NCBI RefSeq assembly: GCF_003010935.1
Contig: NZ_PGGN01000002.1
Location: forward strand, 372,001 to 436,000
DNA length: 64,000 bases
From: Phyllobacterium endophyticum
GTDB taxonomy: Bacteria; Pseudomonadota; Alphaproteobacteria; Rhizobiales; Rhizobiaceae
Direction: 5' to 3'
Shown: positions 41,692 to 56,129 of the stretch, one piece after another
Layout of the letters: each line of letters starts with the position of its first letter
Position numbering within the stretch: position 1 is the first letter of the stretch
Notes under the pieces: generated by a model
What the model was told of the DNA's origin: nothing
What the model saw: the letters and a program-made list of their open reading frames with translations, nothing else
The model's database searches: none
Translations under genes and position numbers: made by a program

Positions 41692-42534
41692 TCAACTGAC
41701 AGGCTGTGCGGCGCGCGTTGCAATCCGCTTGTAAGCGTCCTGGATCGGATCGCGCAGTTGAATAAATGGCGATACACCAAGAAGCAGCAGCGCCTTCAGA
41801 TGCTCCCGTCCGCTCTCGTAGCCGGCGAATGGCGCGAAAGGGGCCATTGGCGTGCGGGAATGGGCGGGATATAGCCGTTCATACTCGGCGAAATTTTCGA
41901 AAGCCTCGTGGTTGCTTTCCCGCATCAGGAAGCTCTCGGCGGGAGCGCCTTCGGCGAAGATCACCTCATGTTTATCCAACACGACGTGGAAATACTCGAC
42001 ATTCTTCTGCCCCGCGGGAAGGGTGCGCGTAATCGACATGCCGTTGACAAGTTCCTTCACCCGGATCAGGACGCCGTCGATCAAGAGTGCGTGGTTGGGG
42101 GAAAGGTAAAGGTCTTTTTCAGGTGTTTTGTCATCTAGCGCGTGGCGTGCAATACGAATCGGCGTGATGTTCTCACTCACGGAAGGACCGGCTATCGTGT
42201 AGGTGCGGCGACCGATCCACTTGATTGCGACGGCTTGCCCGCGCACGGTTTCAACCAGATCGCCGATCTTGAGATCTTCGATGCGGGTCTCGCCTTCCGG
42301 GGTCCTGATCGACGTGCCGCGCAGGAAGCAATTCCCGCCATCGCCATCACCGGAACCCTTGTCGCCACCGGGTCTGTTCCACCATTTGTTGCCCATGGCT
42401 TGCGCCGGTAGCGAGTGAAGCGCCGTTGCCGCGGCACTCAGCGCCGCAACTCGACCGCCTGTGGCAAGTACCACTCCTAGGAAGTGACGCCTTGCCCGGC
42501 TGGATGGCAAGGGTTTTTCTGGCTCTGATGACAT
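41692..42534 (-). CDS. Exported Hint-domain protein
   Basis: From the ATG at 42534 (AAGGAGA upstream) this encodes 280 residues. It starts with a Tat-like signal (SRARRHFLGVVLATGG), then a short Gly/Asp spacer (GGDKGSGDGDGG). The Hint domain follows: NCFLRGTSIRTPEGETRIED with the splice-type Cys, LKIGDLVETVRGQAVAIKWIG, and LYLSPNHALLIDGVLI. The rest is a family-typical C-terminal part (EYFHVVLDKHEVIFAEG). Hint domains are self-cleaving modules of inteins and Hedgehog proteins. Alphaproteobacterial proteins with this single domain are mostly uncharacterised. Confidence 0.88.
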   Translation of the reverse strand: MSSEPEKPLPSSRARRHFLGVVLATGGRVAALSAAATALHSLPAQAMGNKWWNRPGGDKGSGDGDGGNCFLRGTSIRTPEGETRIEDLKIGDLVETVRGQAVAIKWIGRRTYTIAGPSVSENITPIRIARHALDDKTPEKDLYLSPNHALLIDGVLIRVKELVNGMSITRTLPAGQKNVEYFHVVLDKHEVIFAEGAPAESFLMRESNHEAFENFAEYERLYPAHSRTPMAPFAPFAGYESGREHLKALLLLGVSPFIQLRDPIQDAYKRIATRAAQPVS

Positions 42535-42845
42535 AGTTTTCTCCTTGTTGTTCGCGTTACGCCGTTTCACTCAAAGATTACTATGTATCATCGTACATTA
42601 TATTGAAATATAGGGAAGTCCCTAGATAAGTGCTTGAAGTGTACTGCAATAGGCGTAGATTAATTCTTTAAAATATGCACCATAGGATGAGCCTTACCTC
42701 TTCTGGTGGAGGTTCGAACTTGCCGGAGAATTTGTGGAGGAGTTAAGTCATAACGACAGGTGCACTACCATCGTGGGTGGCGCTACGGTGCTTGCCTGAA
42801 AGGCACTGCACGGAGTGGTCAACTGAATGAGGTGCTTGAAAAACC
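42535..42845. other. Intergenic region on the left flank of the integrated element
   Basis: This 311-bp stretch between the Hint protein start and the left attachment repeat shows no gene I can support. It must have been the downstream flank of the tRNA-Glu gene before insertion. Confidence 0.5.
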
Positions 42846-42893
42846 TGGTACGCCCAAGGGGAATCGAACCCCTGTTTGCGCCGTGAAAGGGCG
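42846..42893. repeat. Left attachment site (attL), 3' part of tRNA-Glu
   Basis: The 48 bases are identical to 56055-56102 and comprise the CCA end, acceptor 3' strand, T arm, variable loop and anticodon arm of tRNA-Glu on the minus strand. Sequence diverges right after the shared GGGCG. No complete tRNA can fold here. Confidence 0.93.
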
Positions 42894-43028
42894 ACATATT
42901 TACAGCTTCTAAGAGTGGTTTAGAGGAAAATCATCTTTAGAAACAATATTGAATGCGCAACGCGCTCTATGCTTGTCTAACTCACTCCAAGGCAGTATAT
43001 TGGACAAAGATTGGACACGGGGCACACA

Positions 43029-44279
43029 ATGGCAAGGCGCGCAAAAAACTCAAAACTGGATAGCAGCACCGCTCGTGACAAGTTGGAACGACGGGGAAAG
43101 CCGCACTACCACAACGTGAAATCAGGAATCCATCTAGGATATCGACGCGATAAATCCGACGTTGGTAAATGGGTCATGCGGTACATGTTGGACGGTGCGT
43201 ATGTGGTCGAAACACTTGACCAGTTGCCGGACGATGTTGAGGACGCCAACGGCAAAACGATCCTCGATTTCGATCAGGCTTGTGACTTTGTCCGCACGAC
43301 TGCAACCAATCGCCAAAATCCTAATGCCTCAAAACGAGTCGGTCCCTACACAGTTAGCGATGCACTCGACGACTATCTGGAAGAACGCACAGAAAAAGGT
43401 AAATCCGTATCGGACAGCAAGAACCGAATTGAAGTGCTGATAAAGCCTGTCTTGGGGAAGATCGTCGCAGAAAAACTAACCGCCGATCAAATCAAGAAAT
43501 GGCATCGCGATCTTGCGAAGCAACCGACGCGCCGTCGGACACGGAAGGGTGAGGAACAGAAGTTCGGCACGGTGCCTAACGATGAAGAGGCGATCCGTCG
43601 TCGTCGCGCTACGTCGAACCGTACCTTGACTGTGTTGAAAGCCGCATTGAACCACGCCTTCAAAGATAGCAAGCTTTCCAGCGACGTCGCTTGGCGTCGT
43701 GTCGAACCATTTGAAGCGGTCGAGGTCGCGCGTATTCGCTACCTGACAACCAAAGAGTCAAAGGCACTGATTGACGCCTGTGAAGGTGATTTCAAGAACC
43801 TTGTCATTGCTGCGTTGCAGACAGGCGCGCGGTATTCGGAACTTGCACGCTTGGTTGTTTCGGATTTCAACCCTGACACCGGAACGCTTTCAATCGCCAA
43901 ATCCAAAAGCGGGAAATCGCGTCACATCGTGCTGCCTGACGAAGGCGTGACGTTCTTCAAATCGCTGACGGACGGAAAACACGCACGCGACATTCTGTTG
44001 TCGAAAGCGGGTGAGGGAACTTGGAAGGACTCGCACCAAATGCGGCCGATCGCTGAAGCGTGTGAACGTGCCAAGATCACACCGGCGATTAGTTTCCATA
44101 TCCTGCGTCACACATGGGCGTCACTCGCTGTGATGAACGGTGTCCCGCTTCTGGTCGTTGCAAAGAACCTTGGTCACGCTGACACACGTATGGTCGAAAA
44201 GCACTACGGACACATGTCAAAAGATCACTTTGCCGATGCTATCCGTACCGGTGCCCCGACGTTTGGTGTGAACGCATGA
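43029..44279 (+). CDS. Tyrosine-type site-specific integrase
   Basis: From the ATG at 43029 this encodes 416 residues: an N-terminal arm-binding-like part, a core-binding domain (SVSDSKNRIEVLIKPVLG) and a catalytic domain with Arg in TGARYSELARL, HILRHTWAS (His-x-x-Arg) and GHADTRMVEKHYGHM (His, then nucleophile Tyr). An insertion with RRRTRKGEEQKFGTVPNDEE occurs in the core-binding part. It catalyses integration and excision at the tRNA-Glu site; attL is 136 bp upstream. The frame from the TTG at 43011 would add six residues. Its stop overlaps the next gene's start. Confidence 0.95.
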   Translation: MARRAKNSKLDSSTARDKLERRGKPHYHNVKSGIHLGYRRDKSDVGKWVMRYMLDGAYVVETLDQLPDDVEDANGKTILDFDQACDFVRTTATNRQNPNASKRVGPYTVSDALDDYLEERTEKGKSVSDSKNRIEVLIKPVLGKIVAEKLTADQIKKWHRDLAKQPTRRRTRKGEEQKFGTVPNDEEAIRRRRATSNRTLTVLKAALNHAFKDSKLSSDVAWRRVEPFEAVEVARIRYLTTKESKALIDACEGDFKNLVIAALQTGARYSELARLVVSDFNPDTGTLSIAKSKSGKSRHIVLPDEGVTFFKSLTDGKHARDILLSKAGEGTWKDSHQMRPIAEACERAKITPAISFHILRHTWASLAVMNGVPLLVVAKNLGHADTRMVEKHYGHMSKDHFADAIRTGAPTFGVNA

Positions 44280-44854
44280 GGTACAGTTGGTACGATATCG
44301 ACTGGCTGATCGCCACACGGTCGGAAATGGATATCGAGGCGGAAGCGCTTAGCCTGACTGAAGAGTTCTATCCCGGTCATCGCGCCGACCTTGCTGAAGC
44401 GTTGCGGCGCATAGACGGCCTAGTCGATGCGGGAACTTACGTCGAACCGAAACCGCGCGAATTGACCGATGATGAACGCCAGATTATTGATCAGATGAAA
44501 GTGGTCGAAAACATGATCGCGTTGAAAAAAAGTCCCGATCCTGGCCAAGCGGCACGGATGAAACGCCTATGGGAAAAGGAGGATTTTGATAATAGCCCGA
44601 CCAGTGAGATTTGGCACATCATGGACGTGTTGCTGACCGTTACCGGTCAGAAAGGACGTGTGCCAATAAATCCACCGTGGCGTAAGGCGACTGTGAACAA
44701 TCAGTTGCACGCTATGCGACGGTTAGTGGACGAGGACGGTATCACACCACGTCAGGCGGCTTTGAGTGTGGCGACCGGTGCAGGTCGCGAGAATCAAGTT
44801 AAGACCTTGTGGAAGCACTACCGTCAGAAACAGAAGCTTCGGGGAAAGAAATAA
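44276..44854 (+). CDS. Hypothetical protein of the integrated element
   Basis: A 192-residue hydrophilic, mostly helical protein whose ATG overlaps the integrase stop (ATGA at 44276). The C-terminal half has LHAMRRLVDEDGITPRQAAL followed by ENQVKTLWKHYRQKQK, which could be a helix-turn-helix with a basic tail. I do not recognise a family. Its coupling to the integrase suggests a role in recombination or regulation of integration. Confidence 0.65.
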   Translation: MRYSWYDIDWLIATRSEMDIEAEALSLTEEFYPGHRADLAEALRRIDGLVDAGTYVEPKPRELTDDERQIIDQMKVVENMIALKKSPDPGQAARMKRLWEKEDFDNSPTSEIWHIMDVLLTVTGQKGRVPINPPWRKATVNNQLHAMRRLVDEDGITPRQAALSVATGAGRENQVKTLWKHYRQKQKLRGKK

Positions 44855-44933
44855 CGTCCATTTCTTTTCCAATGACCATCACTCTAATTTGCTTCATCGT
44901 CATCTTACGAACAACGGAAAGGATGACGACACC

Positions 44934-45119
44934 ATGAACATTCAATCTCAAGTCTACAGTATCAAAGAGTTTTGTAAGGCCTTCGGGATCAGCGAACCCA
45001 CGTTCTATAATTGGCGTAAGAAGGGTCTTGCTCCCAAAGTGATGCAAGTTGGCGGTCGCACATTGATCGCTATCGACGCCGTCAATGAATGGCGTCGCGA
45101 GCGTGAAAACGCCGCCTGA
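44934..45119 (+). CDS. AlpA-like helix-turn-helix regulator or excisionase
   Basis: A 61-residue protein with YSIKEFCKAFGISEPTFYNW, KGLAPKVMQVGGRTLI and DAVNEWRRERE, which is the MerR/AlpA-type winged HTH pattern of phage and satellite regulators (P4 Vis, AlpA). AAAGGATGACG upstream supports the ATG. Such proteins repress or activate integration genes or promote excision. It lies between the integrase block and the replication block. Confidence 0.85.
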   Translation: MNIQSQVYSIKEFCKAFGISEPTFYNWRKKGLAPKVMQVGGRTLIAIDAVNEWRRERENAA

Positions 45120-45222
45120 GATAAAAGACACCAAACCGCAAGACGACGGAACGCAACACCGATCTTAAACGGAAAAACCAGCCCGTCACGGCTGGTTTCC
45201 ATAAATATGCGGAGCTTTCGAT

Positions 45223-45309
45223 ATGCGGTATTTAGATACCACCATTGCGCTTTTCGCGCAATATCTGCCGTTTGCCATGACGATCCTCTTGATCGTAGGC
45301 GGCGCGTGA
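45223..45309 (+). CDS. 28-residue membrane peptide coupled to the primase gene
   Basis: Encodes 28 residues beginning MRYLDTTIALFAQYLPFAMT and ending in LLIVGGA, a single hydrophobic helix. GGAG eight bases upstream is a normal ribosome site, and the TGA stop overlaps the ATG of the primase gene by one base (45309). It is either a leader peptide controlling primase translation or a functional membrane peptide of the element. Confidence 0.5.
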   Translation: MRYLDTTIALFAQYLPFAMTILLIVGGA

Positions 45310-46475
45310 TGAGCAAGACAATCTTCGATCTTCGTCAGTTCGTGAACTGGAGGATGGTCACGGACGATCTGACCGGCCGCGGTCGGAAAGTCCCATTCAA
45401 CCCGCAAACCGGCCGTTCGATCGACCCGCACCATGAACTGAATTGGAAGTCATACGACGAAGCGGTTGCCGCAAGTCAGAATGTCGGTTTCGTCCTGACG
45501 GCAAAAGACCCTTACTATCTGTTCGACATTGACGACGCGATCGGTGCGGACGGTCAGTGGATACCGGAAGCCGTTACGCTCTATCAACAGTTTGTCGCGG
45601 CCGGTGCGGCGGCGGAAGTCTCACAGTCTGGAAAGGGAATGCACCTTGTCGGCAAGTGCGACCAGTTGTTGACGTCGAACCGGCGGAACAAATTCGGCAA
45701 GGAACTACGCGGCAAGAACTGGTTGGAATTCTATACGCAAAAGCGGTTCATGGCATTGGGTCAAGGCTTCACGGGACCGTTCGCCGACACAACGGGGTTG
45801 ATCCTGTCCGTGGTTCCTGAACGCGCACCTGACGAACCTGACACGTACGACACCAGCGGTCCGCGACCGGATTACACCGGACCAACTGACGACGACGAAT
45901 TGATTCGCCGACTGTGTTCGTCACGTGGTTCGATGAACGCCATGTTTGGCGCTACAGCGACGCCGGGACAGTTGTTCGAGGGAAATCTAGCGGTACTGTC
46001 AAAACTCTTTCCATCGCCTTCAGGTGATGCGTTTGACCGGTCCAGTGCCGACGCCGCGTTGTTGGGTCACTTGGCGTTCTGGACCGGCTGTGACGCCGAA
46101 CGAATGGACAGGATATTCCGTCGGTCCGCGTTGGTCCGTGACAAGTGGCTGAAGCGTGAAGACTACCGGCGCGACTCGATAGAGTTCGCCTGCAAGGGTT
46201 GCAAACAGGTGCATAACACGCCGCCGATCGAATGCGCCACTGTGGTTGCGCTTGACGGTGATGTGATAGTTCCGATCGCTGCCAACGAAGCGTCAGCCGC
46301 GACGGAGTCTTCAATAGCATCTAATACTTGTCGAACGGTTCGGCGCGCGGTTGCGGTATGTGGCCAAGTGGGGATCGTGGTTGCAGTTCGACGGTCAGCG
46401 ATGGGAAACCGAGCACACATTACTTGCATCGCATCTGGCAAGATCGATCTGCAACGAATTCGCCTCGAAGCTTGA
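45309..46475 (+). CDS. Phage/plasmid primase-polymerase N-terminal half, frame ends out of register with the helicase
   Basis: This 388-residue frame starts at an ATG that overlaps the upstream small peptide stop. It matches the primase part of P4/NrS-1-type proteins: FDLRQFVNWRMVTDDLTGRG, YYLFDIDDAIG with the metal-binding Asp residues, EVSQSGKGMHLVGKC and DRSSADAALLGHLAFWTGCD followed by ERMDRIFRRSALVRDKWLK. After about residue 340 the frame becomes atypical, while the frame starting near 46321 reads LVERFGARLRYVAKWGSW, the normal continuation. I conclude that the gene is split by a +1 shift near 46290-46325, or that both halves are made separately. Confidence 0.85.
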   Translation: MSKTIFDLRQFVNWRMVTDDLTGRGRKVPFNPQTGRSIDPHHELNWKSYDEAVAASQNVGFVLTAKDPYYLFDIDDAIGADGQWIPEAVTLYQQFVAAGAAAEVSQSGKGMHLVGKCDQLLTSNRRNKFGKELRGKNWLEFYTQKRFMALGQGFTGPFADTTGLILSVVPERAPDEPDTYDTSGPRPDYTGPTDDDELIRRLCSSRGSMNAMFGATATPGQLFEGNLAVLSKLFPSPSGDAFDRSSADAALLGHLAFWTGCDAERMDRIFRRSALVRDKWLKREDYRRDSIEFACKGCKQVHNTPPIECATVVALDGDVIVPIAANEASAATESSIASNTCRTVRRAVAVCGQVGIVVAVRRSAMGNRAHITCIASGKIDLQRIRLEA

Positions 46476-47655
46476 AGCGTCTTCATCCTTGTACCGCAAG
46501 CTTGAATCGAAAAACACCATAACGTCGGTTGAAATTCTAGCGCGTGCTGATCGCAGGATTGCCGCGTTGGTCGATCAATGGGACGCCGACACCATGCTGT
46601 TGAATACTCCTGACGGTGTGGTCGACCTTCGTACTGGTCTGTTGAAGCCCCACGATCCGGAGCATTACTTGACGAAGATCACCGCTGTCGGACCATCGTC
46701 TGTCGTTCATTGCCCTGTGTGGTTGGCATTCCTGCATCGCACGTTTGCCGGTGACGTCACCATGTTGTCCTACGTCCAACGTGCCTTTGGGTATTGTCTG
46801 ACGGGAAGCACGAAAGAACATGCGTTGTTCTTCGGTCATGGGACAGGCGGGAACGGCAAGTCAGTCCTGTTGAATGTCCTGACGGGCATTCTTGGAGATT
46901 ACGCCAAAATCGCTTCCATGGCGACTTTTGAGGCGACGTCAGGCAATCGTCACTCAGCTGAACTCGCGATGCTTCACGGTGCACGTCTTGTCACCGCAAG
47001 CGAGACGGAAAGCGGTAAGAAATGGGCAGAAAGCCGGATCAAGACTATCACTGGTGGTGACCCGATCACCGCACAGTTCATGCGACAGGATTACTTCACG
47101 TACACCCCGCAATTTAAGCTGTTGTTGGTTGGCAATCATCGTCCAGGATTCCGCGACGTTGACGAAGCGTTGCGTCGGCGCATTCACCTTTGGCCGTTCG
47201 ACGTGACGATACCAGCGCACGAACGCGATCCTGAACTAAGCGACAGGTTGCGTGTTGAATGGTCCGGTATACTGCGATGGGCTATCGAAGGTTGTCTAGC
47301 ATGGCAGCGCGAAGGTTTGAGTGCTCCTGTGATGTTCAGAAAGGCGACGACGGAATATCTCGACAGTGAAGACGCATACGAAGCATGGATCAGTGATCGT
47401 TGTGTCCGTGACGTCAACAGCTTCGAGAAGTCATCAGACCTGTACGCTGATTGGAAACGATGGGCCGAACAAACCGGTGAACAGGTCGTCAGTCAGATAA
47501 TGTTTTCTAAATCGACAACGGACCACGGCTTCAGACAAGCGCGGTCGGAAGGTGGATCAAGGGGGTTCACTGGATTGAGGTTAATAGAACCAGTCTCGCA
47601 AAGGAGATTTGATGAGGCGTTTAATGGATCACCACCGGGTGCCAATCCATTCTGA
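46351..47655 (+). CDS. P4-type phage/plasmid primase, C-terminal helicase half
   Basis: From the TTG at 46351 this encodes 434 residues. The D5-type N-terminal part (RYVAKWGSWLQFDGQRWETE) precedes an SF3 helicase with Walker A FGHGTGGNGKSVLLNVLTG, SELAMLHGARLVTASETESG-type B region (LAMLHGARLVTASE) and LLLVGNHRPGFRDVDEALRR (motif C and arginine finger). It uses ATP to unwind DNA at the replication origin. The open frame begins only at 46318, after a TAG, and the first residues of the domain lie before any start codon, so the natural product may depend on frameshifting from the primase frame. Without it, the TTG start would give a helicase alone. Confidence 0.88.
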   Translation: MRYVAKWGSWLQFDGQRWETEHTLLASHLARSICNEFASKLEASSSLYRKLESKNTITSVEILARADRRIAALVDQWDADTMLLNTPDGVVDLRTGLLKPHDPEHYLTKITAVGPSSVVHCPVWLAFLHRTFAGDVTMLSYVQRAFGYCLTGSTKEHALFFGHGTGGNGKSVLLNVLTGILGDYAKIASMATFEATSGNRHSAELAMLHGARLVTASETESGKKWAESRIKTITGGDPITAQFMRQDYFTYTPQFKLLLVGNHRPGFRDVDEALRRRIHLWPFDVTIPAHERDPELSDRLRVEWSGILRWAIEGCLAWQREGLSAPVMFRKATTEYLDSEDAYEAWISDRCVRDVNSFEKSSDLYADWKRWAEQTGEQVVSQIMFSKSTTDHGFRQARSEGGSRGFTGLRLIEPVSQRRFDEAFNGSPPGANPF

Positions 47656-47663
47656 CAAATGTG

Positions 47664-47685
47664 CCCCGCTTCGTGCGGGGTTTTT
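47664..47685 (+). terminator. Rho-independent terminator after the helicase gene
   Basis: CCCCGC, TTCGT, GCGGGG followed by five T residues, nine bases after the helicase stop. Confidence 0.9.
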
Positions 47686-47691
47686 GTATCC

Positions 47692-47811
47692 ATGACGCAT
47701 TTGACGCATTTGACAGGTTTTCAAATTGATCCTCCATATACGTGTCACCCGCGTATTATACATATAGAAGGTCATTACAAAATCGGGTCAAAAGCGTCAG
47801 AAGCGTCAAAT
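47692..47811. repeat. Nine-base repeat array in inverted halves, possible origin
   Basis: TGACGCATT is repeated directly at 47693 and 47702 and begun again at 47711 (TGACAGG). About 80 bp further the complement appears as GGGTCAAA, AGCGTCAGA and AGCGTCAAATG at 47785-47811, in 9-bp steps. The array lies between the primase-helicase and the terminase genes. Such iterons next to a primase are typical of replication origins or binding sites of a regulator. Confidence 0.6.
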
Positions 47812-48087
47812 GCCCTGTTCTGTGATGGTCAACAGTGGTGAATTCGAGACGTCATCGATACGGTTCGAAACTCTAAAAATTAAACCCAACTTTTCGCGTA
47901 TTTTTCCGTCCGACCGCCTTCAGAGTCGTGTCGAAAATTGGCGTTGACGCTCCGACAAGGCGATAACGACAGCAATATACAGGAACTTACAGTAACATAT
48001 ACAACGACTTAGGTTGAGCTTTCTGCTATCTGTCTAATATCCTGTCCAATTAAGGGCATTTTTAGACGAAAACTACCCGGTAAATCT
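47812..48087. other. AT-richer non-coding stretch before the terminase genes
   Basis: No gene is supported. It contains AT-rich runs that would suit a promoter for the terminase block or unwinding at an origin next to the 47692 repeats. Confidence 0.4.
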
Positions 48088-48459
48088 ATGTCCGACACCG
48101 TCCGATTGCCTCCCATTCTACCACCCAAACCACGCGGTCCAAAGGCGTCCTTGTTGCGCATCGACCAATTGGACGGTCGTACCACGACCGCACGCAATGT
48201 CCGTGCGCTCTTGAACTCCATTACATCAGACCTTGGCGGACATGACGCACTATCGGAGGCGCAACGCATCCTTGTCCAACGTGCCGCTGTCTTGTCAGCG
48301 GTGTGTGAGGATTTCGAGATGGCTTACCTTTCAGGACAGAAGGCCGACATGCAGTCTTACAACGCTACGGTCAACGTCCTGCGTCGCGTGCTGGACACGC
48401 TAGGATTGGAACGCAAGGCGAAAGACCTCGTCGACCTTCAGACCTATATTAAGGGTTGA
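48088..48459 (+). CDS. Probable terminase small subunit-like protein
   Basis: A 123-residue protein with a Pro-rich start (RLPPILPPKPRGPKASLLR) and a helical core (LSEAQRILVQRAAVLSAVCEDFE followed within the next residues by YNATVNVLRRVLDTLGLERKAKD, both split here). Its position directly before a terminase large subunit, overlapping only the TTG alternative start, and its helical size suggest a small subunit for DNA recognition. I do not see a confirmed HTH, so the call rests on context. Confidence 0.5.
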   Translation: MSDTVRLPPILPPKPRGPKASLLRIDQLDGRTTTARNVRALLNSITSDLGGHDALSEAQRILVQRAAVLSAVCEDFEMAYLSGQKADMQSYNATVNVLRRVLDTLGLERKAKDLVDLQTYIKG

Positions 48460-48464
48460 CCACG

Positions 48465-49865
48465 ATGGATATTCTAACCGCGTGCAACGATCCTAAGCTC
48501 TTCAAGAGGTGGTTCAAAGACCCGTCGACCTATGAACGGTGGTTCGTCTTCCTAAAGGCGACATTCGGTCTTCCGATGTTACCTCATGAGGTAACGATCT
48601 ATCAGCACCATACTGGCCGCACCACTTTACCCACAGGTCAATTCAATGACGTGACGTTGGTGGTCGGTCGTCGTGGTGGCAAGTCGTTCATATCGGCACT
48701 CACAGCCGTCTATCTCGCCGCGTTCCACGAATACCATCAGTACCTCGCACCGGGTGAACGCGCGACCGTGATGATCATCGCGGCTGATCGTCGTCAGGCA
48801 CGGGTCATCATGCGCTACATCGGTGCGATGCTGAACGGCATACCCATGCTCAAGGCCATGGTCACGAACCAAACGACGGAAGGTTTCGACCTATCCAATG
48901 CGACGCGTATCGAAGTCGGCACTGCATCGTTCCGTGCGACCCGTGGTTACACGTTCGCAGCGGTCCTCTGTGATGAGATAGCGTTTTGGCGTTCGGACGA
49001 AGCGTCTGCAAATCCCGACAGTGAAATCATCGCCGCGTTGCGTCCCGGTATGGCGACGATACCGAACTCACTCATGATCGCCATGTCATCACCGTACGCC
49101 AAACGTGGCGTGCTGTGGAACAATTACAAACGGCATTATGCTAAGGACGACAGTCGTCATCTGGTCTGGAAAGCTTCGACGAAGGAAATGAACCCCGTCG
49201 TTCGTCAATCGTACATCGATGAAGCATACCAAGATGACCCGGCCGCTGCGTCTGCGGAATATGGCGGTGAATTCCGTTCTGATCTTGAAGCATTCGTTCC
49301 GCTTGAAGTCGTCCAGGCATGTGTTGATCGTGGTGTGATAGAACGTGGCTACATCAGCACCAACACCTATCGTGCCTTCGTCGATCCGTCCGGCGGTAGT
49401 GTAGACAGCATGACGTTGGCTGTCGGTCACAGGGAAGGCGACAGAACGATCATTGACGCCGTTCGTGAGCGCAAGCCTCCATTCTCACCGGAAGCTGTCG
49501 TTGATGACTTCTGCGACCTCCTGAAGCTGTATCACGTCGCACGCGTCACAGGTGATCGATACGCCGGTGAATGGCCTCGTGAACAGTTTCGCAAACGTGG
49601 TATCGCGTACGATCTGTCCGAACTGGTGCGATCCGACCTTTATCGCGATCTATTGCCGGTCCTGAATTCCGGTCAAATTTCGTTGGTGGACAACGAAAAG
49701 ATGGTGAACCAGATCGCGAACCTTGAACGTCGCACGGGCAGGGGAAAAGACATTATCGACCACGCACCGGGTCAGCACGACGACTTAGCGAACAGCCTCG
49801 CCGGTGTAGTCAGCCTGACAACCAAGCGTCGTATGACCTACAACATCGACGCGTGGGGAGATTAA
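48465..49865 (+). CDS. Phage terminase large subunit
   Basis: From the ATG at 48465 this encodes 466 residues. The ATPase domain has a Walker A-like VVGRRGGKSFIS, the adenine-binding region before it, Walker B AAVLCDEIAFW and a coupling motif in IAMSSPYAKRG. The nuclease domain has Asp residues in AFVDPSGGSVDSM, DRYAGEWP and IDHAPGQHDDLANSLAG. It packages DNA into capsids. Because no capsid or portal gene exists in the element, it must serve packaging of this element into helper virions or be a remnant. AAGGG precedes the ATG. Confidence 0.94.
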   Translation: MDILTACNDPKLFKRWFKDPSTYERWFVFLKATFGLPMLPHEVTIYQHHTGRTTLPTGQFNDVTLVVGRRGGKSFISALTAVYLAAFHEYHQYLAPGERATVMIIAADRRQARVIMRYIGAMLNGIPMLKAMVTNQTTEGFDLSNATRIEVGTASFRATRGYTFAAVLCDEIAFWRSDEASANPDSEIIAALRPGMATIPNSLMIAMSSPYAKRGVLWNNYKRHYAKDDSRHLVWKASTKEMNPVVRQSYIDEAYQDDPAAASAEYGGEFRSDLEAFVPLEVVQACVDRGVIERGYISTNTYRAFVDPSGGSVDSMTLAVGHREGDRTIIDAVRERKPPFSPEAVVDDFCDLLKLYHVARVTGDRYAGEWPREQFRKRGIAYDLSELVRSDLYRDLLPVLNSGQISLVDNEKMVNQIANLERRTGRGKDIIDHAPGQHDDLANSLAGVVSLTTKRRMTYNIDAWGD

Positions 49866-49973
49866 AGTAAAAGTTGATGTATATTGCTATACACTCCTAT
49901 AACCAGCAACAAATGCGGATTATATACGCGAACATGCCGTTGACTCCTCAGTATTACCAAGTAAGCTGTTCGT

Positions 49974-50132
49974 ATGAAAACCGGACACACTATCACTGTC
50001 AAACTAACCGAAGCGGAATATTGTCTTTATCTTGACGCCGTTGCCGTCATAGGGGGCGACATTTCAACTCTAGTACGTCGAAGCGTTCGAACGTTCATCA
50101 AGAACACCGAGGTGAAGAACAATGATCTATAA
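49974..50132 (+). CDS. Ribbon-helix-helix small protein
   Basis: A 52-residue protein beginning KTGHTITVKLTEAEYCLYLD, a beta strand followed by a helix and then GGDISTLVRRSVRTFIKN. This strand-helix-helix layout fits the CopG/Arc type of small DNA-binding regulator. It starts 108 bp after the terminase and its last codons overlap the next gene start at 50122. Confidence 0.6.
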   Translation: MKTGHTITVKLTEAEYCLYLDAVAVIGGDISTLVRRSVRTFIKNTEVKNNDL

Positions 50133-50481
50133 GCGAAGAGACGGCACGTCATGCGACGAAACTGAGGCATTATTGCCGGGCACAACTGCGATGCGTGACG
50201 GGTACTCTATAACCGTTCCCCTTCAATTCAGAGATAATCGAACAGTACATGATGGACCGCTCATCAGATCAATTCAACCACAGGGAACTAAACCAATGGA
50301 TATCACAGACACGATGCTGCGTGATGCGCGTCAGCGCATGGCAGCGGCACGCCAACGCATGATTGATCGTGACGCATATGCTCCGGACAACGGCCACATT
50401 TCGACACCAGTGTTCGTCGACGCCAAAGACGGCCGTGCACGTCAGGACACCGCATACAACAAAATGAAAAGGGGTTCCTAA
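50122..50481 (+). CDS. Hypothetical phage-like protein
   Basis: A 119-residue hydrophilic protein. The middle has MLRDARQRMAAARQRMIDRD, an amphipathic helix, and the ends are charged. GAGGTG lies before the ATG, which overlaps the end of the RHH gene. I do not recognise it. Its place between regulator and the coiled-coil gene suggests a phage structural or accessory origin. Confidence 0.5.
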   Translation: MIYKRRDGTSCDETEALLPGTTAMRDGYSITVPLQFRDNRTVHDGPLIRSIQPQGTKPMDITDTMLRDARQRMAAARQRMIDRDAYAPDNGHISTPVFVDAKDGRARQDTAYNKMKRGS

Positions 50482-50482
50482 G

Positions 50483-51244
50483 ATGAACATGATGACAAAT
50501 CACATTCAGGCGGCACTCACAGGTCAGTCGCGTCCGAATATTACAACACTGACGAAGCTGGTCGCCGAACAGAAAGCCATCACCGAACGCGCTGAAAAGC
50601 TTCTTGCCGATGCGAGAAAGACAGCGACCGATCCTCTCGAATGGGAAGTCGCGGTATCCGACGCACAGCGACTGATTCCGCATCTGGAGATGGATTTGGA
50701 GCGCAACAAGAAAGCGCTTGTCATCCTTGAACAGAAGCTTGCCGCCAAGAAAGCGGCGTTGCCAGCTTTGCAAAAGGATTATCAATCGGCGCTTGTCGAA
50801 CGTTCCAACTTGGCTGGACGATTTAATGAAACCATTCAGCCGCGCCTCATCGACATTTACAACTTCGTCGCAGATGCACAGCGGAACCGGCAAAGGCTTG
50901 TTGCTGTGGCGGCAAAGGGTGAATTCGAAGTCGATACTACGCAGGGTAATTTTCCTGTCGCCTTCATCGAAGCGGCAATCGAGTTTTTCGCCGCGATTGG
51001 CATCAGTGCACCTGTTGCAGCAGTTCCAACAGATGGCGATTTGCCGTTGACGTTCGAGGTCACCAACAAGGGCAACGGTCCCCATCGTCTATATGATGCT
51101 CAAGACCGCGCGATTATCATAATGGTCGGCGAGACCAAGGTTGTCACGCTTTCGGAAGGTGGTGCGAAGGCTGCACGGTCACACCCTGACCTTGTGATCA
51201 AGGAGGTAAGCGGTCCGAAGCTGATACCAGAAGAGGACGCCTGA
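50483..51244 (+). CDS. Coiled-coil protein with a C-terminal virion-like module
   Basis: A 253-residue protein that is helical and coiled-coil over about residues 20-130 (LVAEQKAITERAEKLLADAR, LEMDLERNKKALVILEQKL), then a domain ending in GPHRLYDAQDRAIIIMVGET, VTLSEGGAKAARSHPDLVIK. The last part resembles a small beta module often next to phage head genes. I cannot assign a function; scaffolding, structural or regulatory roles are all possible. It is preceded directly by the previous gene. Confidence 0.55.
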   Translation: MNMMTNHIQAALTGQSRPNITTLTKLVAEQKAITERAEKLLADARKTATDPLEWEVAVSDAQRLIPHLEMDLERNKKALVILEQKLAAKKAALPALQKDYQSALVERSNLAGRFNETIQPRLIDIYNFVADAQRNRQRLVAVAAKGEFEVDTTQGNFPVAFIEAAIEFFAAIGISAPVAAVPTDGDLPLTFEVTNKGNGPHRLYDAQDRAIIIMVGETKVVTLSEGGAKAARSHPDLVIKEVSGPKLIPEEDA

Positions 51245-51245
51245 A

Positions 51246-51587
51246 ATGGCGACCGCGCATCATCATTTCAAAGTATCACGCGCGTGCCCGGTCGAGCCAG
51301 AATACGAACGGGCACGCGCAAAGCGTGACGCAGTCCGCGCGGCGTTAGAAACGGAATACGTGAGTCACGCGATGGCTATTGCCAAAATCCTGGAGCGTCT
51401 GGACGCTTCCGATCGGGCGAACGATATCGGCAATGCCTGTCGCGGCCGGTCACCTGTGATTGTGTCGGCGGAAGCATTGGCACGTGGCATATCGCCTACG
51501 TTTCAGTCAGCGCGGACCGGCGTCAAGATCGCACGATTGCGCGATATCGTTCGGTTGCCGCGTTTGGATGGTGGATGGTTTTTGTGA
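51246..51587 (+). CDS. Hypothetical protein of the integrated element
   Basis: A 113-residue basic, helical protein, with ACPVEPEYERARAKRDAVRA and an end with SARTGVKIARLRDIVRLP. It starts one base after the previous stop, so it is in the same operon. No family recognised. It is the last gene of the core block before the cargo region. Confidence 0.5.
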   Translation: MATAHHHFKVSRACPVEPEYERARAKRDAVRAALETEYVSHAMAIAKILERLDASDRANDIGNACRGRSPVIVSAEALARGISPTFQSARTGVKIARLRDIVRLPRLDGGWFL

Positions 51588-51633
51588 ATTTCCTAACTTG
51601 CAGAATGCATCCGTCACCGGCTAGGCTGATCAA

Positions 51634-52731
51634 ATGGTGGGCTTCTACAAATTCTTGGACAAGGCAGCGGTGCATTACCTCCTTGAAGGCAGCTTCAAGT
51701 TTGGCAGGTTGAAGAAGTATCGGCTGATGGAGGCCATCACTGGGGACCAGTGGATAGGCGATAAGAATGAGGGAGTGCAGACCACCGTCATCAACGTGGT
51801 CATAGGCGATGAGCCGAACTCAGAGCTTGCAGACGCGCTGTCGGCAAGCGGTCATATCAGGATTGATGGTCAAGCAACAAACGTGAGCGTCTCGGAAACT
51901 TGCATAATCGAGGAGTTCGACTGCTTTGCGTTTTGCTTCTCGCATGGCGACCTGTCCGCGCTTTGCTCAAGTATGAGTGATCCCAAGCGTGGTGACTTTA
52001 GCTATGACGGTTGCGTGGAGATATTGGACCCTGACGCGTTGGTACAGCTAATACTGTCTCATGGGATTTGTTTAGGTAAGCCCGTCTCTGAACTGTTTGT
52101 GGTCGACGCAAAACACGTGACTTATGAGGATGAAGTTGAGCACGACTTCAGAACAGATCTGAAGATTTCCCCGGGCAACCCATTTCAAAAGAGCCTTCTA
52201 TATAAGGATCAATGTGAAGTAAGGATTGTTCTTGTTCCCAAGGAAGGGCCCATACTGAAAGATGACATTGTTGTTAGCATAGTCGGAGCGCTGTGCCCCG
52301 TAGCGTCTATCGATATATCGGGCAACGTGAACGCCGCTAGCTTGGAGAAGACGCAGGAAGTACTGAACCCTAATGAGCAGGACTGCATTGCCAGCCTCAA
52401 GTCGCTCATCTCAGATTGGAATAAGGTGAAGGGCGAAATCCGCGCGAGTGCATCTCCTCCCTTGTATCCATATTCAGCCGACCCTGAGAGTTGGCGAGCG
52501 GAGGCCCATAGGCAAATTGATTTTGAAAGTAGGGCTATAACTGAGGCTTTTGAGGTTTACCGCAAACCGTTGATTGATGCTTACTGGGGCATAAGAAGGC
52601 TGCCGAGTTGCGATAGAGTGGACGACATGGTGCTAGTGTCGGCTCCATGGTTGGTGCTGACAACAACCCTCCAAAGATATCTAGCAGAGCACTTGGGTTT
52701 GCCTATCGGTGGTTGGAATGATCAATGGTGA
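51634..52731 (+). CDS. DUF2971-like protein in the cargo region
   Basis: This 365-residue protein begins VGFYKFLDKAAVHYLLEGSF and continues with FGRLKKYRLMEAITGDQWIG and DKNEG, a layout like DUF2971 (Y-K-Y start, then a D-x-x-EG segment). The middle has FDCFAFCFSHGDLSALCSSM and later DQCEVRIVLVP. DUF2971-type genes are often seen in defence islands; this does not prove a role here. The C-terminal third is unfamiliar. Its end is followed within 13 bp by the PD-(D/E)XK gene, so the two are co-transcribed. Confidence 0.5.
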   Translation: MVGFYKFLDKAAVHYLLEGSFKFGRLKKYRLMEAITGDQWIGDKNEGVQTTVINVVIGDEPNSELADALSASGHIRIDGQATNVSVSETCIIEEFDCFAFCFSHGDLSALCSSMSDPKRGDFSYDGCVEILDPDALVQLILSHGICLGKPVSELFVVDAKHVTYEDEVEHDFRTDLKISPGNPFQKSLLYKDQCEVRIVLVPKEGPILKDDIVVSIVGALCPVASIDISGNVNAASLEKTQEVLNPNEQDCIASLKSLISDWNKVKGEIRASASPPLYPYSADPESWRAEAHRQIDFESRAITEAFEVYRKPLIDAYWGIRRLPSCDRVDDMVLVSAPWLVLTTTLQRYLAEHLGLPIGGWNDQW

Positions 52732-52744
52732 AAAAAGGACGACC

Positions 52745-53167
52745 ATGGAAATGATCGCCCCCATCGGTGGCAGGCCTTCAGCGTATAACACTGGCGTTGC
52801 AGCAGAATATTTCGTTCTTTCGCAGCTTTATAGGATGGGATTTGAAGCTTACATAACTTTTGGTAACCGAAAATCGATCGATATCAGAATCATTTCTTCC
52901 ACCGGTGCGGCGGCGACCATCGATGTTAAGGCGGTCAAAGGTTTTTCGTCGGTCATCATCAATAACGTTGTACCAATCCAAAATCATTTCATTGTAGCTG
53001 TCATATACAATGATCAATTAGCGAACCTTCAAACCTATCCTGAAACTTTCATTATTCCGAGCCAAGAAATTGAATCCGTGGAAAGCCGATGGGGCACCCA
53101 ACGCCGATTGCTCAAGCGTAATCTTGGATTGTTCAAAGATGCGTGGGAACTACTGAACGTTGTTTAG
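52745..53167 (+). CDS. PD-(D/E)XK nuclease-like protein
   Basis: From the ATG at 52745 this encodes 140 residues with NTGVAAEYFVLSQLYRMGFE, where the Glu precedes a core of FGNRKSIDIRI and TIDVKAVKGF. The order Glu-helix, strand with Asp, strand with D-V-K is the restriction-endonuclease fold core, with the D...DxK metal site intact. A longer frame from 52709 overlaps the previous gene. The product is probably a small DNase or a nuclease-fold partner of the upstream DUF2971-like protein. Confidence 0.7.
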   Translation: MEMIAPIGGRPSAYNTGVAAEYFVLSQLYRMGFEAYITFGNRKSIDIRIISSTGAAATIDVKAVKGFSSVIINNVVPIQNHFIVAVIYNDQLANLQTYPETFIIPSQEIESVESRWGTQRRLLKRNLGLFKDAWELLNVV

Positions 53168-53181
53168 ACCAACCTTTCGCT

Positions 53182-54078
53182 TCAGTCTTTGATTTTTCGC
53201 CGTGGAGCGCGCTCCTGTCTAGCAGTATTCGTGCGCTCAGGAAGGGACGGCGGCGGAAGTTGTGTGATTGGGGGGCCATCCATGGGAGGAAACGATAGTT
53301 GGGATGCTATCTCCCACAGCTTCAGCTTCCCTTCTGATTCAGACAGAGTCTCTCCGTCAGCGAGCGTTGTTGTTGTAGGAGGGATCATCTTGATCTCGAT
53401 TGCCCATCCTCGCTCGACCCTCGACAATATGGCTTCCAATGCCCAATGAACATGGTTGCGTTGCTCGTTTTTTCGAGGCGTCTCCTTAAGGTCTCCGACC
53501 AGCTTTTCCGTTTGAGACGTGATCTCGGCGGCGATAAACGTCTTAATTTTCTCTTCCAGCTGACCTTGAATATTTCCGTCATCCAACGCCGCAATTTTTG
53601 CGGCATCAGAACGTAGCTTTCGGATTTGTTCCACTTGTTTCCAAGTGTTAAGCGCCCACGTCACAGCAGCACCAATGACAATAATTGTTTCCTGTGCTAG
53701 TCCGAAAAAAAAGAGCGGATCTGATGTGGAAATTTGTTTCACTTCGATCGGTTCGGCTGAACCTGTGGTTAATTCTGAAAAGGCGCGGATGATACTCTGT
53801 ACCGCACTTAACTCGCGTATAAGATTAGACAATTCATTATCAAAAAGAGTTCGAGGGAGAAGAAAACCTATTTCCGGATTTCCATCCGTTAGCTCATGTG
53901 ACTCGATCCCCAAGACAACAAAGTCATCTTGAATCTGCTGAAGTCGATTGAGGTAAGATTCACGCTCGGCCAAAAGGGCTTTCAGGTGATTTAATGCGAC
54001 AGCCGGTGCGGCAGGATTAACGGCTATTAGATCGCTAGTTTCTTTTGCCAGGTCCAATGAGAAAATATTTGAGCGCAT
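53182..54078 (-). CDS. Coiled-coil membrane-associated protein, last gene of the cargo cassette
   Basis: A 298-residue protein with helical coiled coil at residues 30-55 (LKALLAERESYLNRLQQIQD), a hydrophobic stretch at about 120-145 (DPLFFFGLAQETIIVIGAAV), further coiled coil, and a Pro-rich and basic C-terminal tail. It overlaps the 92-residue gene by 44 bp. The membrane segment in the middle of helical parts suggests a membrane-linked effector or scaffold. No enzyme motif is visible. The 3' end faces the PD-(D/E)XK gene tail to tail, 15 bp apart. Confidence 0.6.
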   Translation of the reverse strand: MRSNIFSLDLAKETSDLIAVNPAAPAVALNHLKALLAERESYLNRLQQIQDDFVVLGIESHELTDGNPEIGFLLPRTLFDNELSNLIRELSAVQSIIRAFSELTTGSAEPIEVKQISTSDPLFFFGLAQETIIVIGAAVTWALNTWKQVEQIRKLRSDAAKIAALDDGNIQGQLEEKIKTFIAAEITSQTEKLVGDLKETPRKNEQRNHVHWALEAILSRVERGWAIEIKMIPPTTTTLADGETLSESEGKLKLWEIASQLSFPPMDGPPITQLPPPSLPERTNTARQERAPRRKIKD

Positions 54079-54313
54079 TTATTTCTTGCAGCTGCTTTTT
54101 CTGCGCCGGTTGAATATCCTCTTCCAATCTTCTTAAAGCGTTAGACAACGAGTCCATTGCAGACGTATAGGACTGCTGAAACGACGCGTCTGTCGGAGAG
54201 CTAACCAAGTTTGTCAGAGCATTATAAAGATCAGTTAGCAGTTGTTGGATTTGGTCTTCAGCTTCTTTCGAGATCAGAAAATCTACGATCTCACGCAAAC
54301 GCGTTGTATTCAT
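54035..54313 (-). CDS. Small helical protein of the cargo cassette
   Basis: A 92-residue acidic helical protein (LREIVDFLISKEAEDQIQQL and NALRRLEEDIQPAQKKQLQE), which would form a helical hairpin. It overlaps the following gene by 44 bp, so the two are translated together, possibly as a complex. No family recognised. Confidence 0.6.
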   Translation of the reverse strand: MNTTRLREIVDFLISKEAEDQIQQLLTDLYNALTNLVSSPTDASFQQSYTSAMDSLSNALRRLEEDIQPAQKKQLQEINALKYFLIGPGKRN

Positions 54314-54337
54314 GTGCTATCCCCCCGGCAGACGTTA

Positions 54338-54970
54338 TCACCTATAGTCTTTTAAGCCTCTCAGATAGTTTTTGAAGCCCTCTAGATCACCTACCTTTCT
54401 AGACGAAAGGTCATTGAAAGCTACTTTATTCAACTTTCTGAGTGCCTTGTCTTCAAAACCATCGTATCCAATTTGCTCATGCGCGCTTACAGCTAAATTT
54501 TGGCACCACTGCCGTATTTCATCTGCTAGGTTAATTAGCTGTTGGGTGTCGTAGCGGCTGTCGGAAATCTGGCCATGGAAAACCTTGTCTCGTAGCGTTT
54601 TTCCATTTTCGATGGCTCGGTTGAGGTTGTTATAATTTGGCCCGACCAGAGCTTGCAAGGTAAGGCCTGACAAGTCTTCAATACCAACGCGGAAACCTCC
54701 AAGATACACGCGTGCGCTCCTTAAATGATCTTCCATGAGCGTTTTCTCGGTAGGACTATCTAGTGCACTGATTAGGTCCGACTGATAGGCCAAACACATA
54801 AAAAGTTTTCGCATTTGCCTCTCTGCTTTGATCCAAGATAAGCAGAAAATATCGACCCCTAGTTTTGACGACTTTGAATTCTTGAGCAGAAGGTCGATGT
54901 TAGAGAACTCTTCGTTGTATCCAGTTGTAAATTTTGGCGTTTCCTTTCCGTTTTCACTGTTGTCCAGCAT
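54338..54970 (-). CDS. HEPN-like protein with an Rx4H motif, cargo cassette
   Basis: A 210-residue all-helical protein. The most informative part is NGKTLRDKVFHGQISDSRYD, which contains R-x4-H followed by G, the pattern of HEPN domains, many of which are metal-independent RNases in toxin and defence systems. The N-terminal half (DIFCLSWIKAERQMRKLFMC) is a long helix typical of the fold. Non-catalytic HEPN proteins also keep a similar R...HG string, so nuclease activity is uncertain. It is the third gene of the cassette. Confidence 0.55.
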   Translation of the reverse strand: MLDNSENGKETPKFTTGYNEEFSNIDLLLKNSKSSKLGVDIFCLSWIKAERQMRKLFMCLAYQSDLISALDSPTEKTLMEDHLRSARVYLGGFRVGIEDLSGLTLQALVGPNYNNLNRAIENGKTLRDKVFHGQISDSRYDTQQLINLADEIRQWCQNLAVSAHEQIGYDGFEDKALRKLNKVAFNDLSSRKVGDLEGFKNYLRGLKDYR

Positions 54971-55010
54971 TCTTTTAATTCTCCTTGATTAACCGACGTT
55001 GGAAGACGAG

Positions 55011-55415
55011 TTAGTGCTTCGCTTTTTTGTCGGTGAGGCCGATCGCTTCGTCAATCATTTGCCGCAGTGCCGGTAGGTCACCGGTGGGCATCGCCAAGGT
55101 AATGCTAAAGTCACCCTCGAAGGAAAGAATCAAACCGACGCCCCCTTCATCATTCATCGCCAGAGTTATGCTCTTCGTATCCAAAACCTGAGGATTCGGG
55201 CGCTCGTCTTCCGGTATTGCTGGCATTAGCTTGCCCATCATGCCCGTGAGAACTGTAATCAATGCAGGGACAACCGACGCCGCAAACTCAAGACCAAATC
55301 TCTTTTTATCTCCTGTGCCCATTAATACGGCGACGGATTTATTTGCTGGTCGGACTTCCGAACTCAAAATCACGTCGAATCTTGGCGCTGTATTTACTAG
55401 CTCTGCCATGTGCAA
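55011..55415 (-). CDS. Unknown protein of the cargo cassette
   Basis: A 134-residue protein, with a possible start also at 55409. It has beta-rich ends and a hydrophobic middle (GLEFAASVVPALITVLTGMM) that may be a membrane helix or a buried core. DEGGVGLILSFEGDFSITLA looks like a regular beta sheet. No family recognised. It follows the membrane protein gene by six bases. Confidence 0.55.
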   Translation of the reverse strand: MHMAELVNTAPRFDVILSSEVRPANKSVAVLMGTGDKKRFGLEFAASVVPALITVLTGMMGKLMPAIPEDERPNPQVLDTKSITLAMNDEGGVGLILSFEGDFSITLAMPTGDLPALRQMIDEAIGLTDKKAKH

Positions 55416-55421
55416 TGCCCT

Positions 55422-55892
55422 CTACGCGCGGGATCGGAATCCATTTACGACCCATCCTAGCGCTAAACCGATCAGAAGGACTGCTATCGGTATGCTCAGC
55501 GACATGGCAATGGTGTCTGTGACGTTACGCCAACGTTTTGCTTCGGCGGCGTTCTTTTCTTCTGCCATTGCGATGGGATGAATACGGTCGACATACGTGT
55601 TGATTGTATCTGTGGTGCTGCCAAAGGGTACGTAGATTTCAGCCCAACTTAGCCCCTCCATTTTTACCACCTGCAATTTGCCAGCATTCTTGTCTCTGAC
55701 TAGGAGTGGGTATTCCTTTGACGTAACCTCAAAGGTTCCAAGTTCCTGTGTGTTGGGATTTATGAGATAACCCGTGGTGGAAATATCAGCATGAGGTTGA
55801 TTGATTTCGGGGTACATGATCAAGACAAAGGATGCGGCCCATACCACTGAAAAGGCGATCCAAGCTCGAAAAAAACCCTTGCGCCAATTCAT
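55422..55892 (-). CDS. Two-span membrane protein, first gene of the cargo cassette
   Basis: A 156-residue protein with membrane helices at about residues 9-27 (AWIAFSVVWAASFVLIMYP) and 127-149 (TIAMSLSIPIAVLLIGLALG), joined by a periplasmic loop of about 95 residues with an alpha/beta appearance and a short cytoplasmic tail. Many defence systems use such two-helix proteins as membrane effectors or sensors. It has a good start context near a GGGG tract (GGGGGGTATC before the ATG on the minus strand). Function unknown. Confidence 0.6.
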   Translation of the reverse strand: MNWRKGFFRAWIAFSVVWAASFVLIMYPEINQPHADISTTGYLINPNTQELGTFEVTSKEYPLLVRDKNAGKLQVVKMEGLSWAEIYVPFGSTTDTINTYVDRIHPIAMAEEKNAAEAKRWRNVTDTIAMSLSIPIAVLLIGLALGWVVNGFRSRA

Positions 55893-56054
55893 GATACCCC
55901 CCGGTTTGAAATCTTATACCACAATAGATACGTAAGTTTCAGAGGCTGTCAGAATTGTTCTACGGCGCGATCGCGCATTTGGACAGAATTTGGACAAGCG
56001 CCAAATCATCAAATGGGAAGCAGTCAAATTGTCAAGAAAAACAAGTAGTTCCGA

Positions 56055-56102
56055 TGGTACGCCCAAGGGGAATCGAACCCCTGTTTGCGCCGTGAAAGGG
56101 CG
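56055..56102. repeat. Right attachment site (attR), inside the intact tRNA-Glu
   Basis: Identical to 42846-42893 over 48 bases. Here the repeat is the 3' part of the complete tRNA-Glu gene, so integration kept the tRNA functional at this end. Confidence 0.93.
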
Positions 56103-56129
56103 CCGTCCTAACCGCTAGACGATGGGCGC
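56055..56129 (-). tRNA. tRNA-Glu (UUC)
   Basis: On the minus strand the gene runs from GCGCCCATCGTCTAGC to a genome-encoded CCA. The acceptor stem is GCGCCCA with TGGGCGT (one G-T pair), the anticodon loop reads CTTTCAC with anticodon TTC, and the T arm is AGGGGTTCGATTCCCCT. Its 3' 48 bases are duplicated at 42846. Confidence 0.93.

Follow-up and report, generated by a model that had tools for sequence, protein, structure and literature searches.

Analysis of a 64,000-nucleotide stretch of the Phyllobacterium endophyticum genome (hereafter the window; contig NZ_PGGN01000002.1, positions 372,001 to 436,000) revealed a 13.2 kb island at 42846-56102. We read it, with a probability of about 0.78, as an integrated phage satellite that belongs to a distinct helper-dependent family with its own packaging motor. 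The predicted motor comprises a small terminase subunit-like protein (TerS) and a large terminase subunit (TerL) encoded by overlapping genes, and because this terminase core recurs in 46 repeat-bounded elements, the island is not a lone deletion remnant.

At each end of the island lies an identical 48-bp sequence that corresponds to the 3' part of tRNA-Glu, and the tRNA-Glu(TTC) gene (56055-56129, minus strand) is kept intact. Within the 22 kb tested, this is the sole direct repeat of at least 16 bp that spans TerL. Site-specific integration with an integrase of its own and attachment (att) repeats agrees with the general definition of a phage satellite, as does a length of 13.2 kb (within approximately 7-20 kb) with no complete virion gene set. 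GC content in 1-kb segments is 0.44-0.57 inside the island versus 0.54-0.61 in the flanks (mixed segments excluded), and an Rfam scan of the island returned the tRNA alone. Five of the six same-genus regions fetched (L197, L198, L200, L201 and L205) contain an island-free tRNA-Glu between the neighbourhoods known from the window; in the sixth (L199), the left side of this tRNA-Glu is occupied by different DNA. None of the other genomes of the genus carries the island (20 searched by DNA, own included); in G398, 1 kb of terL matched at 64%, and in G405, 267 bp of cargo matched at 65%. In the same-genus genomes G405, G402, G412 and G403 (L210-L217), att-like copies at tRNA-Glu genes enclose other stretches of approximately 21-38 kb; these have an integrase that is only distantly similar (26-27% identity) and lack a TerL of the island family. 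The 1.2 kb directly left of the island is also missing from the five empty sites. It holds the gene of a Hint-domain protein (41692-42570, minus strand) that adjoins the island and may be a separate insertion, since it is absent from these sites and similar genes are found elsewhere.

A PHROGs scan of 18 island open reading frames (ORFs) identified TerL as the one clear virion-category protein, with no match to portal, capsid, tail or lysis families. The initial annotation of this DNA had reported the terminal repeats, a tyrosine integrase, an AlpA-like regulator, TerL and the lack of those virion genes, all of which stand (Table 1). It had also called the gene set unlike that of P4, which is borne out by TerL and by a TerS-like gene that had been overlooked. 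Residues of what we take to be the Walker-type and nuclease-type motifs are invariant among 11 aligned TerLs, and the TerL profile matches the solved TerL nuclease 5m1f (E 6.1e-4). A search of 50,697 phage records gave 14 matches to TerL, the best at 24.5% identity, and TerL is annotated 'hypothetical protein' in the four best-matching plasmid records; without a close phage relative and under such a name, the family is therefore easily overlooked. The model of the TerS-like protein resembles HK97 TerS, a helical fold match of modest Z; comparison with PHROGs matched 0 of 52 members, and Foldseek gave no match at E <= 0.001.

The primase and helicase domains of the initial annotation are likewise present, but not as two separate genes. 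The two pieces match different ranges of one 772-position family (Table 1), and we therefore read them as one PHROG_1829-type gene split over two frames. In relatives, the replicase is either fused (711 aa in L139, 775 aa in L115) or represented by a separate 454-466-aa helicase. Given the split, the copy in the window may be a damaged member of the satellite family. A programmed frameshift was considered and is not favoured: no slippery heptamer was seen by eye at the junction, which makes a simple break in the gene, or else a mistake in the assembly, the likelier cause. The best PHROG match of the 61-aa helix-turn-helix (HTH) protein is PHROG_57 (TerS, 1.2e-7), via the HTH, and the next is an excisionase family (2.3e-7); the protein could be an excisionase or an activator.

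A profile of 11 TerLs retrieved 212 relatives from genome contigs and 82 from IMG/VR, of which the best 80 in each case were kept. Together with 10 loci from a search of the order and the window, these form a compared set of 171 loci, most with flanks of up to approximately 10 kb per side. From the order search, G238 (match in two pieces), G360 (weak) and two partial matches of G376 lie outside this set. ORF calling was mechanical, with selection by conservation score, so that small or shadowed genes can be missed. TerL matches occur in 12 of 397 genomes of the order and, at E <= 1e-60, in 3 of 385 genomes of the class, own genome included in both counts. Forty-six TerL elements (45 distinct; L053 and G249 are the same contig, and L120 and L121 are near-relatives), 7.8-18.0 kb long, are flanked on both sides by direct repeats of 17-114 bp, a count made without a chance control and with five repeats as short as 17-18 bp (L037, L042, L071, L082 and L104). 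A tRNA gene lies at the repeat in 39 of them, covering 13 kinds (Glu, Lys, Cys, Arg, Ala, Ser, Met, Val, Asn, Trp, His, Leu and Gln), and none was found there in the other seven. All 46 have TerL, 43 a TerS-like gene and 43 an integrase. By record title or kinship, 35 are alphaproteobacterial, 8 come from other groups and 3 are viral contigs.

The proposal of a new rhizobial satellite type is thus supported as regards a satellite family, but the family is not confined to rhizobia: record titles name methylobacteria, acetic-acid bacteria and sphingomonads as hosts besides rhizobia. Similarly, the expected recurrence of the module with swapped cargo and no virion genes is seen in the swapped flanks and in the absence of a portal (0/46), but does not extend to all virion genes. 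Many relatives carry one or a few besides terminase, whether for a tape measure, a capsid, a protease, a neck protein or a tail fibre. Among the bounded elements, a tape measure is found in 16 (15 of the 45 distinct), a capsid in 5, a protease in 3, a neck gene in 3 plus 2 of another neck group, and a tail fibre in 3. Major capsid genes are present in L041 (with protease and tape measure), L089, L098, L103 and L149, none of which has a recognised portal. The gammaproteobacterial L089, L098 and L103 are compact (7.8-9.6 kb) and combine integrase, TerS and TerL with an HK97-type major capsid. In the sphingomonad islands L104 (13408-15558), L096 and L112, a tail-fibre-like protein is the one recognised virion gene besides terminase; that of L104 aligns over 79% with a Rhizobium phage RHph_X2_24 protein, at 51% identity.

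Thirteen of the 16 tape measures were found with local profiles and three (L045, L079 and L088) by PHROG. No further virion gene besides terminase was recognised in 10 of these elements, and L041, L042, L046, L079, L120 and L121 add one or two more. When representatives were scanned against PHROGs, the tape measures of L046, L038, L045, L079 and L088 were clear, that of L053 was weak (1.1e-4) and that of L060 had no match, which makes the L053/G249/L060 group less sure; local profiles are the only basis for G124 and G356. The best-matching families differ (PHROG 973, 24, 991, 9570 and 8462) and the longer match lists overlap (L079 with L088, L038 with L045). The groups are therefore distinct, with relatedness between them possible. 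Mapped onto a 45-row TerL tree, the tape-measure label must change at least 8 times (counted without shuffles), which suggests that tape measures have been repeatedly gained, lost or exchanged. The 559-aa tape measure of L046 is 49.0% identical over 92% to its closest phage counterpart, the 559-aa one of Rhizobium phage RHph_Y55, and that of L042 (approximately 555 aa from the aligned start) 47.1% over 87%. Equal length is not general, since the L041 protein is longer at its C-terminus and that of L040 has distant phage relatives alone (29% over 37%). We tentatively propose, at somewhat less than even odds, a broad satellite lineage in which a TerS-TerL motor is combined, in place of a complete head module, with one or a few repeatedly acquired foreign particle parts, mostly tape measures, that re-tool the helper virion. 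If true, such satellites would substitute their own tail ruler with tail length unchanged, perhaps controlling DNA ejection or head-tail choice.

These extra genes could also mean that the family consists of capsid-forming phage-inducible chromosomal islands (cf-PICIs) that have lost head genes to differing extents. Here and below, satellite classes are defined from excerpts of PMC10690885, PMC10803314, PMC11389934, PMC8569155 and PMC13230959. The capsid, protease, neck and tape-measure genes of some members would agree with such losses, and cf-PICIs too have their own TerS and TerL (PMC10690885). The bounded elements have no recognised portal, however, even where a capsid is present, and tape measures, the commonest extra, fall into several groups and lie outside the cf-PICI head module as the excerpt of PMC10690885 describes it. 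This suggests gain or exchange rather than loss alone, and we regard an origin by loss as unlikely.

Portal genes also bear on the alternative raised in the initial annotation, a prophage shortened by deletion that retained its integration, replication and terminase genes. Close relatives within portal-bearing prophages were sought; two local profiles detected a portal in none of the 46 bounded elements and none of the 91 genome loci, 88 of which have a TerS of the island type. The Pfam portal family PF04860 is present in 19 of 31 host genomes and never within the island by coordinate comparison, in which contig numbers of genomes reached through named loci were not tied to accessions; at L086, where coordinates might coincide, there is no ORF of the reported length. 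Among viral contigs, by contrast, 35 of 80 have a portal, and 23 of 80 have neither portal nor island-type TerS. One locus in 111 with TerS, L124, has both, together with an integrase, a protein of helical cluster cc5 and a tape-measure-like gene. Its TerL (54.7%) and that of L194 (52.7%), one of the portal-bearing contigs, are as near to the island TerL as those of a typical satellite (median 53.7%). These relatives, the split replicase and a probably split cargo gene would suit a deletion remnant. The portal-bearing relatives, all of them viral contigs, are nonetheless more remote on average. Median TerL identity to the island is 54% for TerS-bearing versus 47% for portal-bearing loci, and 41 loci, the window counted, outscore L124, the best portal-bearing locus. 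In addition, a further 19 loci, many of them portal-bearing, have upstream of TerL a gene (cluster 6) with no detectable similarity to the island TerS. On a FastTree of 166 TerLs, portal and TerS labels cluster (6 changes versus approximately 25.5 in shuffles; 32 rows left uncounted), albeit not as two clean clades, with L124, L135, L162 and L194 among the satellites. Profiles of TerL, TerS, portal and capsid over the compared loci, and the occurrence across many taxa of 45 distinct bounded elements alike in size and gene order, make deletion quite improbable as an explanation. Less probable still is an island that moves by its integrase alone and keeps TerS/TerL for defence or copy control: no helper is known and the right half is taken up by cargo genes without an assigned function, but the catalytic-type residues of TerL are conserved, tape-measure, capsid and fibre genes of relatives would have no evident use lacking virions, and IMG/VR holds circular-looking contigs.

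Several observations bear on the movement of the satellite family. Contigs L079 (51 bp), L098 (51 bp), L120 (60 bp) and L121 (114 bp) have exact terminal direct repeats, as expected from circles. Plasmid pKNA06 of Komagataeibacter nataicola (L207) encodes TerS, TerL, a DUF2213 protease-type gene, ParA and a serine recombinase, and consists largely of two copies of a 10.4-kb satellite-like unit that are 99.8% identical, with TerL broken in the second. One Afipia genome has two islands, at tRNA-Ser and tRNA-Lys, that share 4.85 kb at 89% and differ outside. In L037/L039 (3.5 kb, 80%) and L038/L040 (4.1 kb, 83%), the terminase stretch is likewise common while flanks and tRNAs differ. Circular contigs, the plasmid form, empty sites and flank-swapped copies together indicate, at the level of sequence, that these elements are mobile. 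As for a helper, three Pfam families were sought in the own genome: PF04860 (portal) and PF05065 (capsid) each gave a single match, the two lying 7.8 kb apart on C4, and PF05136 gave none. The C4 ORFs are ordered TerL, portal, protease, and a penicillin-binding protein gene adjoins. This cluster looks like a gene transfer agent and is the sole portal/capsid cluster that these three families revealed, so that any helper is probably a phage from outside.

Sequence supports integration and the circular forms; replication, packaging, helper use and particle re-tooling are inferred. A mechanism is proposed that starts from the island seated between its att repeats at the tRNA-Glu 3' end, beside the tyrosine integrase and with the tRNA intact. 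Upon infection by, or induction of, a helper, the integrase and the AlpA-like protein would excise the island, in keeping with the existence of circular relatives, and the primase/helicase would replicate it; in the window copy, the split replicase would leave replication lost or reliant on another source. The island TerS would then pick its own DNA, and TerL would pump it into proheads built of helper portal and capsid, bypassing the helper's terminase. Finally, the borrowed particle could be adjusted by the helical protein whose gene follows TerL and, in certain relatives, by a tape measure, capsid protein or tail fibre.

Some points weigh against reading the island as a satellite of this kind. 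The TerS-like protein is identified by its position and the modest-Z helical fold match, with no profile match, and L124 joins satellite TerS-TerL to a portal. The own genome has no clear helper prophage by the three Pfam families tried (PF04860, PF05065 and PF05136), and mobilisation, packaging and helper are inferred from sequence. The absence of portals from the family is drawn from two data-derived profiles and one Pfam family. With its replicase split and probably one cargo gene split as well, the copy in the window may be defective.

Table 1. Features of the island (window coordinates) and the portal/capsid cluster elsewhere in the same genome.
Feature	Position	Strand	Evidence
attL-side 48-bp repeat, copy of tRNA-Glu 3' part	42846-42893	.	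exact match to 56055-56102
Tyrosine integrase, 422 aa	43011-44279	+	PF00589 E 1.1e-22; PHROG_1 1.9e-53
192-aa protein overlapping integrase end	44276-44854	+	no Pfam/PHROG match; no relative among ORFs of 171 loci
AlpA-like/HTH_17 regulator, 61 aa	44934-45119	+	PF12728 E 4.5e-11; relatives in OWN2, G142
Replication protein N-terminal piece, NrS-1 polymerase-like primase	45306-46475	+	PF22763 1.8e-22; PHROG_1829 positions 11-300
Replication protein C-terminal piece, D5_N/DUF5906 helicase, other frame	46351-47655	+	PF08706 2.4e-29; PHROG_1829 positions 342-765
TerS-like small terminase subunit, 123 aa	48088-48459	+	overlaps TerL by 4 bp
TerL, large terminase subunit, 469 aa	48456-49865	+	PHROG_2 1e-25
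119-aa protein after TerL	50122-50481	+	no family match of substance; no convincing similarity to clusters 26, 57
253-aa coiled-coil protein	50483-51244	+	hhalign to cluster cc58: probability 80, 130 columns
113-aa protein, related to cluster 58 C-terminal part	51246-51587	+	32-36% to L042, L118, L119 over 88-93 residues
365-aa cargo protein	51634-52731	+	PHROG_13198 (unknown) 7.4e-5
152-aa cargo protein	52709-53167	+	PHROG_29029 (unknown) 6.1e-7
Cargo gene as two overlapping ORFs, 298 aa + 92 aa	53182-54313	-	27.4%, 25.6% to same 382-aa ORF of G356
Three cargo ORFs, 210, 134, 156 aa	54338-55892	-	no family match of substance
attR-side 48-bp repeat within tRNA-Glu(TTC) 56055-56129 (-)	56055-56102	.	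repeat and tRNA match
Portal/capsid cluster of own genome, L202/L203	G000:C4:1614173-1624788		PF04860, PF05065

A recognised coiled-coil or helical family protein, mostly of 220-310 aa, follows TerL in 34 of the 46 bounded elements, a count that the window enters through the 113-aa neighbour of its coiled-coil protein. A single common family for this gene was considered and rejected: cc5 and cc97 form one family, to which cc19, cc23, cc86 and cc58 are not detectably related, nor, among those compared, to each other. The predicted cc5 model has a predicted local distance difference test score (pLDDT) of 92.8 and gave no match in the PDB at E <= 0.001. In the cargo region, the 152-aa protein may be nuclease-like, judged by eye, and the 156-aa ORF is 37.5% identical over 56 aa to an island in G412. 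Both ORFs of the interrupted cargo gene match one ORF of the G356 island, which suggests that the gene is probably split over two frames. PADLOC returned weak, unconvincing matches alone for eight right-half ORFs and the coiled-coil gene.

The same genome contains a second island of 10.1 kb (G000:C9:139372-149557; L017:7373-17558) at tRNA-Glu(CTC), bounded by 50-bp repeats. Its TerL is 57% identical to that of the first island, and it carries a cc5-type helical protein and a weak match, below cut-off, to the archaeo-eukaryotic primase (AEP)-type family PF22548. It is a second candidate satellite, beside the possibly damaged copy in the window.

Among known satellites, P4 has a D5-type primase/helicase and an AlpA-like regulator, phage-inducible chromosomal islands (PICIs) and Staphylococcus aureus pathogenicity islands (SaPIs) carry a primase, and virion-encapsidated integrative mobile elements (VEIMEs) and tycheposons are elements that integrate and that occur in virions or bear genes resembling those of satellites. 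The island resembles P4 in its primase/helicase with a D5-type domain and its AlpA-like regulator, and PICIs and SaPIs in size class, integrase and a presumed redirection of packaging. P4, however, is packaged by the terminase of its helper P2, and PICIs rely on the helper TerL, which they combine with a TerS of their own or with a TerS-binding protein (PMC10690885), whereas the island has both TerL and a TerS-like gene, and its family has its own TerL throughout. With phage-inducible chromosomal minimalist islands (PICMIs), the island shares an integrase, an AlpA-like protein (PF12728 is among the PICMI models), a DUF5906-type replicase and small size; the excerpt of PMC10803314 places PICMIs at fis, without identifiable packaging genes, in contrast to a tRNA-Glu island with TerL. 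In cf-PICIs, compared here by description, TerS and TerL are accompanied by a portal, a capsid, a protease and connectors (PMC10690885); the island is like them in having a TerS-like gene and a TerL of its own and presumably depending on a helper for the remainder, and differs in lacking those four kinds of gene. None of the 46 bounded elements has a recognised portal. Capsid genes without a portal, as in some relatives, have a precedent in Ccm, the SaPIbov5 capsid homologue that redirects assembly (PMC8569155). ParA-bearing plasmid satellites such as pKNA06 have one in cf-PISP and PISP, episomal satellite-plasmids of Vibrio with capsid genes; PISP is described with TerS, and TerL goes unnamed in the excerpt (PMC13230959).

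By published descriptions the element is thus set apart: its own TerL makes it neither a PICI, nor P4-like, nor a PICMI, and the missing head module distinguishes it from cf-PICIs. A search of open-access papers found none on alphaproteobacterial satellites with a terminase but without head genes, and this terminase-bearing satellite family is widespread and little noticed. Known satellites, as far as the papers cited here go, draw on the large terminase of the helper, as P4 and PICIs do, or assemble a head of their own, as cf-PICIs do. A motor-bearing family, often with just a tail or capsid part, would bridge P4 and PICIs on the one side and cf-PICIs on the other, and would suggest that a parasite can exchange many of the components of a virion.

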